DNA of 20,910 nucleotides from a virus: positions 1-20,910 of the IMG/VR virus record IMGVR_UViG_3300017917_000447, one strand, 5' to 3'. Below the pieces are notes generated by a model that was given only the letters and a program-made list of their open reading frames with translations, was not told the DNA's origin and searched no databases. A program made the translations under genes and the position numbers. Shown piece after piece: positions 4,805 to 20,522 of the stretch (positions within the stretch are counted from its first letter, which is position 1; every line of letters begins with the position of its first letter).

Positions 4805-5242
4805 ATGACAAAAGAAAAATTAGAAGAGCTAATAGCATCAGGTGCTACTAGAAAATGTAACAAGTGTAACGAAGTATTACCAGTTACTGAATTTCACATA
4901 CAAGCTGGCAAAAATCCTAACCATTACAGATTTAATTCTCCTTGTAAGTTTTGTGCTAATTTTCATAGAAATAAAAATTATCATAAAGCATATTTAAGAA
5001 AAATTAAGTACGACTTAAGTCAAGAAGATTATGACTTAAAACTAAAAGAACAAAACTATTCTTGTGCTATATGTGATATACATAAAGATGATTACTCTAA
5101 AGAATTTTCTGTAGACCATTGTCACAAAACAGGAAAAGTAAGATCTTTATTGTGTACTCAATGTAATTCTGGAATAGGTTTTTTTAGAGAAAACATAACT
5201 GTTATGAAAAAAGCTATCCAGTACGTAAAGAAACATCAGTAA
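4805..5242 (+). CDS. Recombination endonuclease VII-like HNH nuclease
   Basis: 145 residues with a zinc-binding CNKC (residues 18-21), a second SPCKFC, a CAIC pair, and the HNH core VDHCHKTGKVRSLLCTQCN followed by GIGFF. This is the arrangement of the T4 endonuclease VII-like family (PF02945), used either to resolve branched DNA or, in many phages, as a free-standing homing-type nuclease. The second role is favoured here because the gene is monocistronic, has its own promoter and Shine-Dalgarno-like site, and interrupts a run of unrelated small genes. Similar AAAAACTTGACA-like promoter sequences lie on both sides of it, at about 4741 and 5245. Confidence 0.85.
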   Translation: MTKEKLEELIASGATRKCNKCNEVLPVTEFHIQAGKNPNHYRFNSPCKFCANFHRNKNYHKAYLRKIKYDLSQEDYDLKLKEQNYSCAICDIHKDDYSKEFSVDHCHKTGKVRSLLCTQCNSGIGFFRENITVMKKAIQYVKKHQ

Positions 5243-5535: not shown

Positions 5536-6067
5536 GGGGGTGCCATGGTTTTGACAGCATTATGAAGGAAGTATCACATGCAAGACCTAGTCAGTGGTCA
5601 AACAAACTGATTACTTTTAACTGGCAACACTAACGTTGACCTTTCTGAGTACACAGTGGACAGTCTGCTTGCAGAACTTGAAGCTGAGGCTGTATTAGCC
5701 TAATCAGACGAGCAGCTATGCTTTGGAACAGAAAATAGCAAATGTAAAGACATAGGACATCCTATGACACTGACCATCCAAGACTATATGATGTAAAAAG
5801 AAAGTTAGTTTCCTAGTTCATAAACTAGGTGGTGGAGCTGGTGACTACAGCTTGTAGTCAACTGGTTAGTTCCCAACTACGGTGCAAAGGACGATTAGTC
5901 GATACGTAATTACGTGACTATTTCTATCCTTAGTACAAATCACGGTGCAGAAGTAAGCTTATAGCTTTACTTTAGTACGATAGTTGTCAAGCTATCTCTT
6001 GACTAAGCATGTAAGAATGGTATTTTTGGAATCTTGTTGGACAGGGGTTCGACTCCCCTCACCTCCA
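5536..6067 (+). ncRNA. ssrA: Transfer-messenger RNA (tmRNA), one-piece, about 532 nt
   Basis: tmRNA rescues ribosomes stalled on broken mRNA: charged with alanine, it switches the ribosome to its own reading frame and tags the product for degradation. The ends pair as a 7-bp acceptor, GGGGGTG (5536-5542) with CACCTCC (6060-6066), then discriminator A6067; the third pair is G.U, the alanyl-tRNA synthetase identity element. The T arm is AGGGG-TTCGACT-CCCCT near 6043-6059. CTAAGCATGTA (6003-6013) and GGAC-x-GGGTTC (6039-6050) match the conserved 3' part of bacterial tmRNA, and GGTTTTGACAG near 5547 matches the 5' part. The tag frame opens at GGC 5623 and stops at TAA 5701. The region between tag and 3' domain holds the hairpins expected of pseudoknots. 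CCA is not encoded. It is longer than E. coli tmRNA (363 nt). Confidence 0.95.
5623..5703 (+). other. tmRNA tag reading frame (26 codons plus TAA)
   Basis: The frame that starts at GGC and ends at TAA encodes a peptide starting GNTNVDLSEY, running through TVDSLLAEL and ending EAEAVLA. The GxTN beginning matches the GETN start of Bacteroides tags and the hydrophobic end resembles the ALAA degron. Bacterial tags are mostly 8-15 residues, so 26 is long. The stop lies in the hairpin AGGCT/AGCCT (5687-5701), as is usual for helix 5. The exact resume codon cannot be proved from sequence alone. Confidence 0.75.
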
Positions 6068-6089
6068 CACTTAACTAAATGTATATAAA

Positions 6090-7430
6090 ATGAAAAAAGT
6101 TTTTCTTTTTGCATTGGCATTTTTAGTATGTCAATTAAGCTATGGTAGGAAGATTTATGTGTCATCCACTTTGGGCAATGATACAAGAACTATTACACAA
6201 GCTCAGAGCTCATCTACACCATGGGCTAGTCTTAGCAAGATGCAGAGTTCTATGTCATCTATAGTTAGTGGAGACAGTGTATTGTTTAGAAGTGGAGATA
6301 GATTCAATGGGACATTAGTAGTATCTTCTAAGACAAATGTCTACTTTGGTAGCTATGGAACAGGTGCAAAACCTTTGTTCTGGGGAACAGGAGCTACAAT
6401 ATCTTCATTAGTCATCTTCAGAAATTCTAAGAACATTGTAGTTGAGAACTGGAATATATCTGACACAACCATCTCATTTACAGACAGATATGTAATGGCT
6501 AAGATTAAGATAGCATTTACCATAGAACAAAGTTCTACAGGGAACACTGTTAAAAACTGTAGAATGGATAGAATTGGATATGGGTTCTACATTACATCAT
6601 CTTCAAGAAGTAACAATATTGCAAACTGTGATATTGGTAATCTTAGAATGATTAAGAATACACCAAAGACTATCAATCCTGATGATGACTATGGTGGTGT
6701 ACCAGTACAAATCTCCAGTTCTGGAAATACATTCACAAACAACTATCTACATGACTGTTGGGCTATGTCCTATGATTATGGTAGAGATGGTGGTGGTATA
6801 GAATTCTTTGAAGAAGGAGCCGTTATAGAAAATAACTTTATTGCTTATAACACGTTCTATGATAACAATGGTACGCTTGAACACGGTTCTAATGCAGATG
6901 GTATAGCTAACAATGACATCCGTAACAACACATTTGCTTTTAATAAGGTAATTAATTGCCAGGGGTCTGTGTACATTAACAACGGTGGGCAGTATAAGAC
7001 AAGAGTGAGAAACCTAATGATTTATAACAATGTGTTTGTAGAAACAGTCACTAAAACATCTACAGCTGTATTTGGTCAGAAGGCGGCTGACACTATTCCT
7101 AATGTTATTGTAGCTAAGAACAACATCTTTAGACTCACTAATGGTCTTCAGGTGGCTAGAACAAGCTTAACCACTCCTGCTAATCAGTTTGTACATACAA
7201 ACAATCTCTATCAGCTATCTGGTGGCAGCATAACCAACTTTCCATTAGACAGATCAGAAATTAGTTCTACATCAACCATCTGGGTGAACACAGCTAATAC
7301 TAACCCTCTTCTTTGGGATTATCATTTAGCATCAGGAAGCCCAGCTTTTAGTTCAGGAATTGATGTAGGCTTATCTAAAAACTTTGAAAACAATCCTGTT
7401 GTGTTCCCATATAATATGGGTATATACTAA
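6090..7430 (+). CDS. Secreted right-handed parallel beta-helix protein
   Basis: 446 residues. The N-terminus is a clear Sec signal peptide: KK, a hydrophobic core VFLFALAFLVCQL, and a likely cleavage after SYG (residue 19). The rest consists of short repeating strands rich in N, G, S and T with asparagine ladders (NIVVENWNISD, NTVKNCRMDRIGYGFYI, NNFIAYNTFYDNNGTLEHG, NNTFAFNKVIN), typical of pectate-lyase-like right-handed beta-helix proteins. Such folds degrade or bind polysaccharide. A tail spike would not normally carry a signal peptide, so I infer a protein exported by the infected or lysogenised host cell. It lies 22 bases after the tmRNA and its stop codon touches the first base of the tRNA. 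Catalytic residues cannot be assigned. It resembles a cargo (moron) gene. Confidence 0.85.
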   Translation: MKKVFLFALAFLVCQLSYGRKIYVSSTLGNDTRTITQAQSSSTPWASLSKMQSSMSSIVSGDSVLFRSGDRFNGTLVVSSKTNVYFGSYGTGAKPLFWGTGATISSLVIFRNSKNIVVENWNISDTTISFTDRYVMAKIKIAFTIEQSSTGNTVKNCRMDRIGYGFYITSSSRSNNIANCDIGNLRMIKNTPKTINPDDDYGGVPVQISSSGNTFTNNYLHDCWAMSYDYGRDGGGIEFFEEGAVIENNFIAYNTFYDNNGTLEHGSNADGIANNDIRNNTFAFNKVINCQGSVYINNGGQYKTRVRNLMIYNNVFVETVTKTSTAVFGQKAADTIPNVIVAKNNIFRLTNGLQVARTSLTTPANQFVHTNNLYQLSGGSITNFPLDRSEISSTSTIWVNTANTNPLLWDYHLASGSPAFSSGIDVGLSKNFENNPVVFPYNMGIY

Positions 7431-7504
7431 GGACTCATAGCTCAATAGGTTAGAGCAATTGACTCATAATCAATAGGTTTCTAGTTCGATCCTAGATGAG
7501 TCCA
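7431..7504 (+). tRNA. tRNA with CAU anticodon (Met elongator or Ile2)
   Basis: Complete cloverleaf of 74 nt: acceptor GGACTCA/TGAGTCC with discriminator A, D arm starting TAGCTCAATAGGTTAGAGCA, anticodon stem ATTGA/TCAAT around loop CTCATAA (anticodon CAT), and T arm TCTAG-TTCGATC-CTAGA. CCA is not encoded, as is common in Bacteroidota. With CAU the molecule could read AUG, or AUA if the host TilS enzyme modifies C34 to lysidine; phages often carry the second type. It starts on the base after the stop codon of the beta-helix gene, so it must be processed out of that transcript or have a promoter inside the gene. Confidence 0.95.
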
Positions 7505-7540
7505 CGACTATGGGAGATATAGTCTTCAAAGGGTATCAAC

Positions 7541-9222: not shown

Positions 9223-9744
9223 ATGAGAAACTCTGAAAAAACAATCAGTGCTAACTCCAAGGGTATAGTTATATCCTATGGAGATGTTAACAAACACATG
9301 TTCACTAGTTATAGAAGTGAGTATGTAAAGAAAATCCAATTGGAAGGTACTAAGAAGTATCAAAAGTTTGATCAATTTGTATTAAATTCAATCCAAGATG
9401 AAATTTATTATAAAACACTCTATGGATTAAATGGGTATACAAGTGAAGAACTAGCAGCAATGTCTAGAAGTAAAAGATCAAAGGTTATTATCACTTACAC
9501 CAAAGCTCACAGAATTCTTAACCGTTGGAAGCAAGAAATAATTAATGAGTATGTAAATGGCTTTATGTCTAAGTTATTTCCTAATTCACCTGTTGTAAAA
9601 CAACTTGTTGGTGTAAATGGGTATGATAACACACTAGACTGCTCTGACATTTCTTTTAAAGAATTAGGAGTAACAAGAAAAGCTATTATAAACAAACTTA
9701 TTGAGTTTAGAGTTCTTCCAGAAAACTTTTACAATTTAGTATGA
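9223..9744 (+). CDS. Hypothetical protein (173 aa)
   Basis: Basic, helical protein with KHMFTSYRSEYVKKIQLEG near the start, a central YTSEELAAMSRSKRSKVIITY and a C-terminal SFKELGVTRKAIINKLIEFRV that looks like a helix-turn-helix-type segment. A nucleic-acid-binding role is plausible from composition but not proved. Its last 4 bases overlap the next start (ATGA at 9741), linking it to the HNH gene. Confidence 0.65.
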   Translation: MRNSEKTISANSKGIVISYGDVNKHMFTSYRSEYVKKIQLEGTKKYQKFDQFVLNSIQDEIYYKTLYGLNGYTSEELAAMSRSKRSKVIITYTKAHRILNRWKQEIINEYVNGFMSKLFPNSPVVKQLVGVNGYDNTLDCSDISFKELGVTRKAIINKLIEFRVLPENFYNLV

Positions 9745-10136
9745 TCACACCTAAACTTAAAAAATGTGCAGGCTGTTCTCAGCTTAAGCACATTTGGAAA
9801 TCTCACAAGAAAGATAAGTATTGTAAAGAATGTTGGTATACAATAGAGAAACCCAAGTCTATAGCTCCTGTCTCTAAAAAGAGGCAGGTTGCTATGGATG
9901 AATACTCTAAGAAAAGACTAGCATTTCTTTCTTTACATGCAGCTTGTCAAGCTAAATTAATAGGATGTAAAGGACTTAGTACAGACGTACATCATAAAGC
10001 TGGTCGTGTTGGAGATAATTATCTCAACATGAACACATGGTTGGCTGTATGTAGAGATTGTCACACTTGGATAGAAGAAAATCCAGCTGAAGCTAAAGAA
10101 CTTGGCTTCTCAGAATCTAGACTTAATGAGTCATAA
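9741..10136 (+). CDS. HNH endonuclease-like protein (131 aa)
   Basis: An N-terminal zinc finger-like pair (CAGC and CKEC) is followed by a basic linker and an HNH core: GCKGLSTDVHHKAGRVG, then TWLAVCRDCHTWIEENP. The HH pair, the conserved N in the loop (LNMNTW) and the CxxCH zinc site fit a functional HNH fold as found in many phages, some of which nick or cut DNA during recombination or packaging. It is coupled to the upstream gene by ATGA. It is not adjacent to terminase genes here, so a packaging role is not supported by context. Confidence 0.8.
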   Translation: MITPKLKKCAGCSQLKHIWKSHKKDKYCKECWYTIEKPKSIAPVSKKRQVAMDEYSKKRLAFLSLHAACQAKLIGCKGLSTDVHHKAGRVGDNYLNMNTWLAVCRDCHTWIEENPAEAKELGFSESRLNES

Positions 10137-16666: not shown

Positions 16667-17248
16667 ATGACTAACTATTATTTTACATTTGGACAAGAAC
16701 ATAGACTTTCTGATGGTTATCCTATGAGAGATCATTGGGTAAAAGTAGAAGCAGTAGACTATGGATCTGCTAGAAAAACATTTATGGAAGAGTTTGCAAC
16801 ACCATGGTTAGAAAGACCATTAGGTTGGGCTTTTCAATATGATGAAGCAGGTTTTAAATCAGAATATTTTCCTAAGGGAGAATATAAATTTATTAAACAA
16901 CAAAACCCCTTTAACATGGCAGTAAATAAAGTAGACTTGACAGTAAGTCAATTAATCAATGACCTGAACTCAGGTTTAACATGGCTTAAGAAAGATGATC
17001 TTGGCTATGGAAGTATAGAAATTAAATATGGTGCTAACCCCAATCAGATTGCAGCTATTAGAAAGCACCCTGCTCTTAAAGATGCAGAGACTAGTATTAC
17101 AATCTTTAACATTATAGATGATACCAAAACCCAACAATCAACAGCTACCAAATCAAACACTCCTGTGGAACAACCAGCCGTATCTATGGTCGGTGAGAGA
17201 ACAACAGTGGATTCAACTGAAGCAGCAGACATCTTTGCCAGTCTTTAA
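16667..17248 (+). CDS. Two-part fusion protein of unknown function (193 aa)
   Basis: I chose ATG 16667 (an in-frame ATG at 16649 would lie inside the nuclease gene). Part one (residues 1-83, YYFTFGQEHRLSDGYPMRD, PLGWAFQYDEAGF) resembles small uncharacterised phage proteins. Part two starts at Met 84 (base 16916, MAVNKVDLTVSQLINDLNSG) with IEIKYGANPNQIAAIRKHP and an acidic, T/S-rich tail. The DNA before Met 84 (AACAAAACCCCTTTAAC) looks like an untranslated leader now read as protein (KQQNPFN). The same sign is seen in the next gene. Part two could also be made separately from the internal ATG. Confidence 0.65.
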   Translation: MTNYYFTFGQEHRLSDGYPMRDHWVKVEAVDYGSARKTFMEEFATPWLERPLGWAFQYDEAGFKSEYFPKGEYKFIKQQNPFNMAVNKVDLTVSQLINDLNSGLTWLKKDDLGYGSIEIKYGANPNQIAAIRKHPALKDAETSITIFNIIDDTKTQQSTATKSNTPVEQPAVSMVGERTTVDSTEAADIFASL

Positions 17249-17270
17249 TGACCCTCTTAATATTAGAAAA

Positions 17271-18917
17271 ATGAGACCAAGTCCTACAGAAAGTGCTACA
17301 TGGTATATGCCAGGTACATTTAAACAAGGTAATGATGGTAACTGGTACACAGTAAGTATAAGTAATTCAGGTGTACATAGATGGATACAAGCTCCTATTG
17401 GACCAGCTACATATATATCACATGAAGTATTTTCTACTAAACATCCATCCTTTGGACAAGCATCAGCTATATTACCAAACAGTCTATATGCTACTATGGG
17501 CAGTACTAGACAACCTCCTATCCAATATAAATTTAATGTAGGAGATATAGTAAAAGTGATAACATCTGGCTCTGGTTGTGCACCAGAAGAAATAGATATG
17601 GAGGTAACTATTATAGAAAGAGGTGACTATTCTTATGATCCAGGATATAAAGTTTATCCAGCTATAGGAAACACTAGAAGTGGTAGCTATAATGGATTTA
17701 TAGGAGAAGAATCATTTCAATTAGTAACACCATCATTATACGCAACAACACAACCAACAATAACAAAAAAACCCCTTAAAATGGCTAAGTCAACTAAGAC
17801 TATTACAAAAAAGACTACTCAAGAAGTACGTCAGATTGAAACTTCTTTGATTAACAAGGAAGAAGTATTTAAGATGCTAGCATTAGCAGAAGCTACAGGA
17901 TTACCACTGTTACTAGTGGGTGAGCCAGGTGTAGCTAAGACCAAAACTATTATAGAATATGCCAAAGCTTGGCTGAACAAAGACGGAAAGATGTCTGCAG
18001 AAGACTTTGCTAACAAGATGTACATTCTAGAGACTGATGAGGGTACTAAAGCATCAGAGATTAAAGGTATGCCTGATCTACAAACATTGTTTACAGAAAA
18101 TAAGTATAACCTTAACACACCTATTGCAGATGCAGATATTGTTATTATCAATGAGGTGGACAAGGCTAGCTCAGCTATCCGTAATGCAATGTTGGGTGTA
18201 ATGAACGAGAAGTTCCTCTTCAACGGTAAGCATAAGATTCCATGTAAGTGGAAGCTGTTCATTGCTACTTGTAATGAAATTCCTAAAGACGAACAAGACT
18301 CTCCGTTCTGGGACAGGTTTATGTTGAAGATGACTGTTAACCGTGTATCTGCAGGTGAAATGGCTAAGTATTATGAGAAGGGTGCACGTAACTATCGTGA
18401 GAAGTTTGCTATTGGTATTCCAAACAAAGCAGAGATTGCTGCTGTAGAGATTCCAGTTAAGAAGCTAGAGAAATATCTTGAAGTGGGTTATACTAAAAGC
18501 TCAGATAGAACATTGACTTTCGTACCAGGACTAGCCAAAGCTGTTAGTTATATATGGGATATCTCTGTAGATAAAGCTCTTGTAAAGACAGCTCAGATTA
18601 TGATTGATCAAAACGCAGCTTCTAACCTACAGAATAAATTAATGTCTGCAGAAGTTAAGGCTGTTATGAGCAAGGTGGAGATGTTACATTCTCATAGCAC
18701 TAGTGAACAACTAGAACTGGCTGTAGCAGAGATTGAAAGTCTCATCAATGCTTATACTAGCAGAGGTGTTCTTGACGAAGGTCAAGTGGAAGAGATAGAA
18801 ATGTCTATGCAGTATATCATTTCTAGTCATCCTGCTCGTAAAGAATACATGTCTGCAGAAGAGTTTGATAATATGCTAGAAGATGCAGCACCAATGGATG
18901 CTAGCAACCCTTTCTAA
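17271..18917 (+). CDS. MoxR/RavA-like AAA+ ATPase with N-terminal SH3-like extension
   Basis: 548 residues from ATG 17271 (an ATG at 17118 would overlap the previous gene by 131 bases). Residues 1-170 are an extra region with beta-rich YKFNVGDIVKVITSGSG and DPGYKVYPAIGNTRSG, like a small SH3-type barrel. The AAA+ part starts at Met 171 (base 17781) and has Walker A GEPGVAKT (217-224), Walker B VIINE with Asn 294 and Glu 295, sensor 1 Asn 335 in ATCNE, and an arginine-finger candidate Arg 349 in WDRF. The stretch ASSAIRNAMLGVMNEKFLF matches the MoxR/RavA lid. MoxR ATPases work as chaperones with a VWA partner, which follows after a small ORF. Asn in place of the Walker B Asp is unusual. Confidence 0.88.
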   Translation: MRPSPTESATWYMPGTFKQGNDGNWYTVSISNSGVHRWIQAPIGPATYISHEVFSTKHPSFGQASAILPNSLYATMGSTRQPPIQYKFNVGDIVKVITSGSGCAPEEIDMEVTIIERGDYSYDPGYKVYPAIGNTRSGSYNGFIGEESFQLVTPSLYATTQPTITKKPLKMAKSTKTITKKTTQEVRQIETSLINKEEVFKMLALAEATGLPLLLVGEPGVAKTKTIIEYAKAWLNKDGKMSAEDFANKMYILETDEGTKASEIKGMPDLQTLFTENKYNLNTPIADADIVIINEVDKASSAIRNAMLGVMNEKFLFNGKHKIPCKWKLFIATCNEIPKDEQDSPFWDRFMLKMTVNRVSAGEMAKYYEKGARNYREKFAIGIPNKAEIAAVEIPVKKLEKYLEVGYTKSSDRTLTFVPGLAKAVSYIWDISVDKALVKTAQIMIDQNAASNLQNKLMSAEVKAVMSKVEMLHSHSTSEQLELAVAEIESLINAYTSRGVLDEGQVEEIEMSMQYIISSHPARKEYMSAEEFDNMLEDAAPMDASNPF

Positions 18918-18937: not shown

Positions 18938-19033
18938 ATGGACCCAGGGGGACTAGATCTCCCTGGTGTTTCATTGGAAGATCTCGTAAAGGCTGCTCAA
19001 ATTAAAACAGATACAGATGGCAAAACAGTATAA
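18938..19033 (+). CDS. Small ORF between AAA+ and VWA genes (31 aa)
   Basis: ATG at 18938, TAA at 19031-19033; peptide MDPGGLDLPGVSLEDLVKAA then QIKTDTDGKTV. It starts 20 bases after the AAA+ gene and overlaps the VWA gene start at 19017 by 17 bases. The composition is that of a small amphipathic helix with a flexible ends, and the overlap suggests translational coupling. The early part also forms a DNA/RNA hairpin (CCAGGG/CCCTGG), so the frame could be incidental. Confidence 0.4.
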   Translation: MDPGGLDLPGVSLEDLVKAAQIKTDTDGKTV

Positions 19034-20522
19034 GAATGTATATACCATTCTTGAGAAAGTAAAGAAAGGTGAGATACAATCTCATTATAAAAATGAAGGT
19101 GGTTTGTTTGGTAAGATTAACTTCTATAAGAAACCAGACCTTATTAAGCCACATATGCATTGGTTAGATGAAAATAGGATAGATAGTATCATGAATCATT
19201 ATTTTGGTGATGCCAAAAATGTACAAGATGCATATAATAAGTTTGCAAAGAGTACAGGTTATGCTAAGATACCTGATGGTAAAAAGCCAGACTTTGGAGA
19301 CTTTGTAAAGAAGGTTAAAGAAAACTATCAGAAGTTTCCTAAGCATATACCTAAAGATATCTTTAAGATGTTCTATCACAGAATGGAGAACTTAGAGTTT
19401 GAAGAGCGTACTGATATTAATCATGCTAAGTTTAGATTTCTAGAGAAAGCTAACAATCCTGTAGCCAAGATTATGTCTGAAGGATCTAATCTAAAGTCTG
19501 CCATCTTTGCTAGAAACATCATGGGTGCATATATGACCAGACTAACAACCATGGATTATATAGATGCAGAACAATCTGAAAAGATTAAGAATGGTATGAG
19601 TGGTCAGTCAGACTTTGACAATGAAGGGTTTGATGACGCCATGAAAGACATGATGGATAGTCAACAAGGTAAGTCTGCAATGGAAGAAGCTATTAAACAA
19701 GCTACAGATTTATGTAATCAAATGGATGATACAATGGACCAAGACATACAAGAGATGATGTTTGACCAGGTCAATGAACCTGGAGGTCAATCTGAAGCTG
19801 GTAAACTTAGTCCTGATTATATCAGACAAGTAGCAAGAAGTCTTGAGAACATATCTCTATCCATGGGATCTCTTAAAGAGAAACTTAAGAAGTTGCTTGA
19901 TAAGTCTGCAAGTTATTTTAGTTCTAAGAAGAAGGTGATATATGAAGACTTGTTCAACTCAGATAATATATCTGGTCTAGAAGAATTTGAATTCTTACAT
20001 CCAAAACTTAGAAAGCTTTTTGCAGAAGACATCATGGTAAAAGATACTAAGTCCATAGGTAAGATAGATGTCTATATAGATATATCAGGATCTATGTCTG
20101 ACTCTTGTGGTGTAACCAATAAAGATGGAGACAGAATATCTCGTTTAGACTTCTGTAAATCCATGGTGGCTAAGCTAGCTGAAATGGATATGCTAAATGA
20201 AGTGTACACATTTAATAACAATGTTAGAAAGTTTAAGAAAGACATTGTAAGTATTGCAATGTTGGATACATCTGGTGGTACAACTATTAACAATGCTGTA
20301 AATAGTGTACAGAGAAATGGCGTTAACGCTATTATTCTTACAGATGCAGAAGACGGATGTAACACTTATTCTGATAAAGCATTCTTCATTGGTCTAAAGG
20401 GAGCTAGGTTTAATCATTTTCATGCTGATACCATAGCAGAGTATTCTAGAAGAGATCAAGTGATTATCTTTGATGGTTCTACTATTAAGAAAGTAGATCA
20501 GAATGGTCAAGTGATGAACTGA
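19017..20522 (+). CDS. VWA-domain protein, partner of the AAA+ ATPase (CobT/ViaA-like)
   Basis: 501 residues. Residues 1-330 are mostly helical; about 210-265 form an acidic, Met-rich segment. The C-terminal VWA domain starts with IDVYIDISGSM: MIDAS residues D355, S357 and S359, then T422 in GGTT and D443 in LTDAED, so the metal site is complete. A VWA domain at the C-terminus after a long helical, acidic part is the layout of ViaA and CobT, which work with RavA and CobS. With the AAA+ gene just upstream, this is an ATPase/adaptor pair. In phages the substrate is not known; assembly or host-takeover chaperoning are options. A strong terminator follows. Confidence 0.88.
   Translation: MAKQYKNVYTILEKVKKGEIQSHYKNEGGLFGKINFYKKPDLIKPHMHWLDENRIDSIMNHYFGDAKNVQDAYNKFAKSTGYAKIPDGKKPDFGDFVKKVKENYQKFPKHIPKDIFKMFYHRMENLEFEERTDINHAKFRFLEKANNPVAKIMSEGSNLKSAIFARNIMGAYMTRLTTMDYIDAEQSEKIKNGMSGQSDFDNEGFDDAMKDMMDSQQGKSAMEEAIKQATDLCNQMDDTMDQDIQEMMFDQVNEPGGQSEAGKLSPDYIRQVARSLENISLSMGSLKEKLKKLLDKSASYFSSKKKVIYEDLFNSDNISGLEEFEFLHPKLRKLFAEDIMVKDTKSIGKIDVYIDISGSMSDSCGVTNKDGDRISRLDFCKSMVAKLAEMDMLNEVYTFNNNVRKFKKDIVSIAMLDTSGGTTINNAVNSVQRNGVNAIILTDAEDGCNTYSDKAFFIGLKGARFNHFHADTIAEYSRRDQVIIFDGSTIKKVDQNGQVMN

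Follow-up and report, generated by a model that had tools for sequence, protein, structure and literature searches.

Phage tmRNAs are usually regarded as spare copies of host genes. They are carried by virulent phages (PMC4131195, PMC9004378), and a 2025 tmRNA database, in which 10 residues is the commonest tag length, holds 79 phage sequences (PMC11915505). The phage-carried tmRNAs of mycobacteriophages, Bacillus phage G, the OM43 phage Melnitz and Streptomyces phages have tags of 9 to 13 residues where these can be read, and that of Melnitz is made in two pieces. Bacterial one-piece tmRNAs (Rfam family RF00023), such as those of Bacteroidota, combine a G3.U70 acceptor, the pseudoknot PK1, a tag starting at a G codon, a pseudoknot region, CTAAGCATGTA and a T arm. 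Extended tags of about 27 residues occur in Mycoplasma and Mesoplasma. The extended tag of Mycoplasma/Mesoplasma florum is degraded by Lon (PMC8138137, PMC3985003). Both tmRNAs in phages and extended tags have been described, separately; in the literature searched, which comprised largely papers available without subscription, no phage group with conserved long tags turned up.

The window analysed here is an IMG/VR virus record of 20,910 bases, in which an earlier note had described, from the sequence alone, a phage-borne tmRNA gene with intact alanine identity and a tag of 26 codons. The RF00023 covariance model spans positions 5536 to 6070 end to end with 81.6 bits (E 1.5e-30; curated cut-off, 47 bits), which bears out the identification. 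The last three positions of the match are the CCA, which is unencoded, so that the gene ends at 6067, as had been proposed. Its 532 nt fold better than 100 of 100 shuffles, and its layout matches that of the bacterial one-piece tmRNAs, unlike the two-piece RNA of Melnitz (Table 1). PK1, whose pseudoknot score of 27.8 was equalled by 1 of 60 shuffles, sits upstream of the resume codon, at the place expected of it. In the covariance-model alignment, the resume-codon region coincides with the tag start at 5623, which upholds the 26-codon reading over one in another frame. The tag ends in VLA, a C terminus that is non-standard, as the note had it, and whose role as a degron is putative. ARAGORN did not call this unusually long gene, probably because of the enlarged part 3′ of the tag; in about 20 relatives it reads the same frame, with tags of 26 to 27 residues. 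Candidate sigma-70 promoter sites for the gene were no commoner than in shuffles.

Table 1. Features of the tmRNA gene, in window coordinates
Feature	Position	Strand	Evidence
Complete one-piece tmRNA gene (ssrA-like), 532 nt to discriminator A	5536-6067	+	RF00023; fold z -3.19
5′ acceptor strand GGGGGTG, opposite 6060-6066; G3 pairs with U6064 (G3.U70, alanine identity)	5536-5542	+	Sequence
PK1 pseudoknot, H-type	5584-5613	+	Pseudoknot score; compensatory changes in relatives
PK1 stem 1, GACC with GGUC	5584-5587 with 5596-5599
PK1 stem 2, UAGUCAGU with ACUGAUUA	5588-5595 with 5606-5613
Tag reading frame, 26 codons + TAA: GNTNVDLSEYTVDSLLAELEAEAVLA	5623-5703 (codons 5623-5700)	+	Translation; pN/pS
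Expected C-terminal peptide of tagged proteins, example: ...SLLAELEAEAVLA
Enlarged stretch from tag to tRNA-like domain, site of helix 5 and of the later pseudoknots	5704-6000	+
ACGGTGCA, repeated inside the enlarged region	5879-5886 and 5942-5949
Module CTGACCATCCAAGACTATATGATGT, common to other phage tmRNAs	within 5704-6000
3′ part of tRNA-like domain	6003-6067	+	RF00023 alignment; sequence
CTAAGCATGTA	6003-6013	+	Intact
T stem-loop	6043-6059	+	T arm intact
3′ acceptor strand CACCTCC	6060-6066
Discriminator A	6067

Viral contigs, some of them 120 to 131 kb long, contain more than 100 relatives of the window's gene for a MoxR-type ATPase (17118-18917). An Rfam search found a tmRNA in 17 of these records, which were reached through an unrelated gene and not picked by tag, and in all 17 the tag has about 26 to 27 residues (the start is ambiguous in L114, with 27 residues by eye and 23 by ARAGORN). 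Scans with the tags yielded 9 and 37 contigs in which tmRNA sequence surrounds the tag, and a scan with a shared RNA module yielded six more; in total, about 56 viral contigs carry tags of 25 to 28 residues, a few of them truncated or difficult to read at one end. The long tag is conserved as a feature of the phage group as a whole. On the MoxR tree, type-A tags, the class to which the window's belongs, are clustered, whereas absence of the tmRNA is scattered. Sixteen long relatives without a model match also lacked a tmRNA by a loose pattern, which points to a patchy presence, the absences being less than firm because some contigs end near the site.

The tags fall into two classes, type A (for example DNTTVELSDYTFESLLAELETSELELA) and type B (for example AKTQSERVAEGEAILASIFADEAVAA), which are connected via intermediates; two tags, those of L162 (GTSNVD followed by RVAEGEAILASIFGEVAIAA) and L098 (DNTTVELSDMTFDSLMAFIGADEAIAA), look mosaic. 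Each class has a conserved inner core, RVAEGEAILASIF in type B and VELS-YT--SL-AEL in type A. Phages with other tag lengths were also encountered, with 21 residues (L106-L111) or 30 to 31 residues (L091, L338). The 30- to 31-residue tags, seen in the phage contigs L091/L084, L338 and L368-L371, one of which is 204 kb long, share a core VxEADAxL, and its form VAEADAFL resembles VAEGEAIL of type B, a likeness of sequence only.

A shared module lies just 3′ of the type-A tag in all nine newly fetched contigs that bear it. Between tag and tRNA-like domain, the phages differ by apparent insertions of structured modules (window 5704-6000; L093, L097, L099, L101, L102, L104 and L115), which would account for the spread of gene sizes from 348 to 779 nt. 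One module, traced by a scan, is confined to tmRNAs, and the 3′ insertions match no Rfam RNA family. The variable 3′ region, the length of up to 779 nt and an acceptor that is mostly GGGGGTG set these genes apart from bacterial tmRNAs.

The tag length of about 26 residues likewise differs from that of Bacteroidota, where ARAGORN readings from 80 tmRNA loci gave tags of 9 residues in 62 of 73 cases. The long exceptions there came mostly from endosymbionts of the Cardinium/Amoebophilus type, with a few apparent misreadings; tags of 27, 29 and 18 residues were read in L201 and L208 (both Cardinium) and L258 (Amoebophilaceae), respectively. Some Cardinium tags are thus as long as those of the phages, at 27 to 29 residues, but they are unrelated in sequence by eye and belong to reduced endosymbiont genomes. 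Among other viral tmRNAs, 21 of 24 have tags of 8 to 13 residues. Neither tag type matched anything in the named phages scanned. A scan of GTDB species genomes with the type-B tag returned no cellular relative, and we dropped a cellular origin for it; derivation from a structurally known protein was dropped as well, type B having no match in the PDB and type A one chance match.

Conservation among the relatives argues that the RNA is functional, as the earlier note had supposed. Acceptor pair 3 is G.U in the window and in 47 of 47 distinct complete phage tmRNA genes (348 to 779 nt), whose extraction demanded seven standard acceptor pairs and a 5′ GGG with the partner of G3 left free; alanine identity is intact in the window, as the note had it. 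Pairs 4 to 7 of these genes vary on both sides in a compensatory manner. PK1 stem 1 shows both-sided compensatory changes too, its pairs being counted in a hand-set register that favours the structure, since MAFFT misplaced this stem.

A 26-codon open frame would arise by chance in about 29% of cases by codon counting, and it is the codon-wise conservation among relatives that excludes a chance frame. In-frame pN/pS is 0.39 for type A (9 distinct tags) and 0.43 for type B (30 distinct tags), against 1.08 and 2.58 out of frame for type A and 1.08 to 3.1 out of frame across both types; the ratios count related pairs without phylogenetic correction, which affects the out-of-frame controls equally. 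Codons differ about twice as often at the third position (0.40) as at the others (0.15 to 0.20). In type B, the ratio is 0.65 for codons 1 to 6, 0.33 for the 13 inner codons 7 to 19 and 0.51 for the last seven codons. The low in-frame ratios, lowest in the type-B inner core, indicate that the tag is translated and that its inner part is under selection, not just a C-terminal degron. The window almost certainly encodes a working tmRNA with this 26-codon tag, and these comparisons strongly support a tRNA-like domain of alanine type, presumably chargeable, together with PK1 and a translated tag, about 26 codons long, that purifying selection maintains in the phage group.

We placed the window among known phages through a relative of 124,719 bases and 31% GC, G072, to which it is tied by the MoxR gene and by gene order, the 20.9 kb themselves being without terminase, portal or capsid genes. 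The terminase, portal and capsid proteins of G072 are related to those of crAss-like phages at 22 to 34% identity, with matches that include phages of Bacteroides, Flavobacterium and Cellulophaga; the terminase profile PF17289 gave no match. Judged by these relationships, the contig would fall in a group of phages of about 125 kb that are kin to the crAss-like ones. The Bacteroidota host proposed in the earlier note is plausible, and the likeliest, in that the structural genes of G072 match those of crAss-like phages that infect Bacteroidota. Among named phages, however, portal and capsid are closest to those of Leptolyngbya phage Lbo-JY46 (portal, 33.5%), recorded from a cyanobacterium. In that phage the tmRNA model found only a short T-arm-like match. 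Some type-B tags, such as those of L161 and L168, have C termini like FSRVAVAA, which we take to resemble the ends of cyanobacterial tmRNA tags. Since these C termini coincide with a Leptolyngbya phage as closest named relative, a cyanobacterial host is possible.

The surroundings of the gene contain several recognizable features. A 446-residue protein encoded directly after the tmRNA (6090-7430, +) has a signal-peptide-like start and, by eye, the look of a secreted, beta-helix-like repeat protein; it matched neither Pfam nor PHROG. It is followed by a tRNA-Met (CAT) gene (7431-7505, +), about 1.4 kb downstream of the tmRNA, and other tRNA genes lie near the tmRNAs of relatives. Nuclease genes are, in the order listed, of the recombination endonuclease VII type (4805-5242, +) and the HNH type (9741-10136, +). 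The MoxR-type AAA+ ATPase, encoded on the plus strand, is widespread in the phage group, and a 501-residue protein encoded after it (19017-20522, +) resembles by eye a vWA-domain partner. We looked for a partner gene beside the tmRNA and found none; a conserved neighbour in that role was dropped, as only conserved gene order was seen. SmpB was not found in 32 phage records, nor ClpP or Lon in the phage records tested, most records being incomplete in both cases. A phage-encoded SmpB, ClpP or Lon was therefore dropped as partner, which implies use of the host machinery.

The likeliest account, with about an even chance of being right, is that trans-translation works in these phages and that its extended tag, kept by selection, alters by which route or how fast tagged proteins are degraded, the last step being inferred. 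By the known pathway, the host alanyl-tRNA synthetase would charge the phage tmRNA, host EF-Tu and SmpB would deliver it to ribosomes that had stalled on broken mRNA, and translation would resume at the G-starting codon at 5623, so that the stalled protein would gain an alanine and the tag. The roughly 17 residues ahead of the C-terminal A/L-A degron would then most likely serve as a second recognition element, altering how a host AAA+ protease, or an adaptor of it, deals with tagged proteins, in route or rate. The overall gain would be that ribosomes stay free when host defences or host shut-off cut mRNA; the earlier note had proposed ribosomes kept free late in infection. The nearest precedent for such an added-recognition role, itself about as likely as not, is the Lon-directed tag of the Mycoplasma type. 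Like the phage tags, the Mycoplasma/Mesoplasma tag is long and changed at its C terminus, which is where the likeness ends, and its altered proteolysis is known; it differs in being cellular, in bacteria without ClpXP, and is unrelated in sequence by eye. A single recognition site common to both phage types is doubtful because types A and B differ much in sequence and charge. We rejected an amphipathic helix in the extension, as hydrophobic moments were not above those of composition shuffles (mean z -0.6). A more tentative version is a phage-specific tagging code in which the inner core docks on a particular host or phage factor; if true, trans-translation products would be sent to the phage's own destination and not along the host's default route.

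The extra length might instead have no role, the tmRNA serving plain ribosome rescue and the C-terminal residues alone forming an ordinary ClpXP degron. Twenty-six of 35 distinct tags do end in AA, mostly after a hydrophobic residue, and some have exactly the ends of host tags (EYALAA, EEFALAA). This is nevertheless unlikely, at perhaps one chance in four, as tag length is held at 25 to 28 residues although the RNAs diverge from 348 to 779 nt, and the tightest constraint in type B falls on the inner core and not on the end. Less probable still is a protective tag that slows or blocks degradation, in line with the slower ClpXP decay that the earlier note had suggested; truncated phage proteins would then persist, or tagging would be incidental to the release of ribosomes. 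The type-A tags, strongly acidic (charge -6 to -8) and ending in ELA, ALA, VLA, EVA or ELV, not LAA, would suit it, whereas type-B tags in the same group retain an AA end suited to ClpX-type recognition, and the sequences give no sign of stability.

An RNA that titrates host SmpB or blocks the host tmRNA has a model in mycobacteriophage DS6A, for whose tRNA-like-only RNA a decoy role has been proposed; such phage RNAs can inhibit host tmRNA (PMC4131195, PMC11915505). The failure to find a phage SmpB would fit, but a decoy needs no tag frame, whereas this RNA retains PK1 and an open frame that is selected at the protein level, which makes this role very improbable. It is harder yet to believe that conservation of the frame serves RNA structure rather than the peptide: the tag does lie inside a structured RNA, but differences are concentrated at third codon positions and pN/pS is low in the tag frame alone. 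Finally, a contig that is contaminated or wrongly classed as viral and carries the host's ssrA, which the earlier note had allowed for, or a decayed copy, might explain the unusual length and the ARAGORN miss. This is contradicted by the phage gene order conserved over dozens of viral contigs, by a type-B tag without relatives in the cellular genomes scanned, and by an invariant G3.U70 and compensatory stems.

A tag about three times the usual length, near-constant and under protein-level selection across a diverse phage group, argues that the phage has a stake in the tag itself. Its conservation suggests that these viruses have changed the fate of tagged proteins. The group would thus provide a sequence-defined case for a phage gain from trans-translation, together with a set of natural long tags as candidate degrons.
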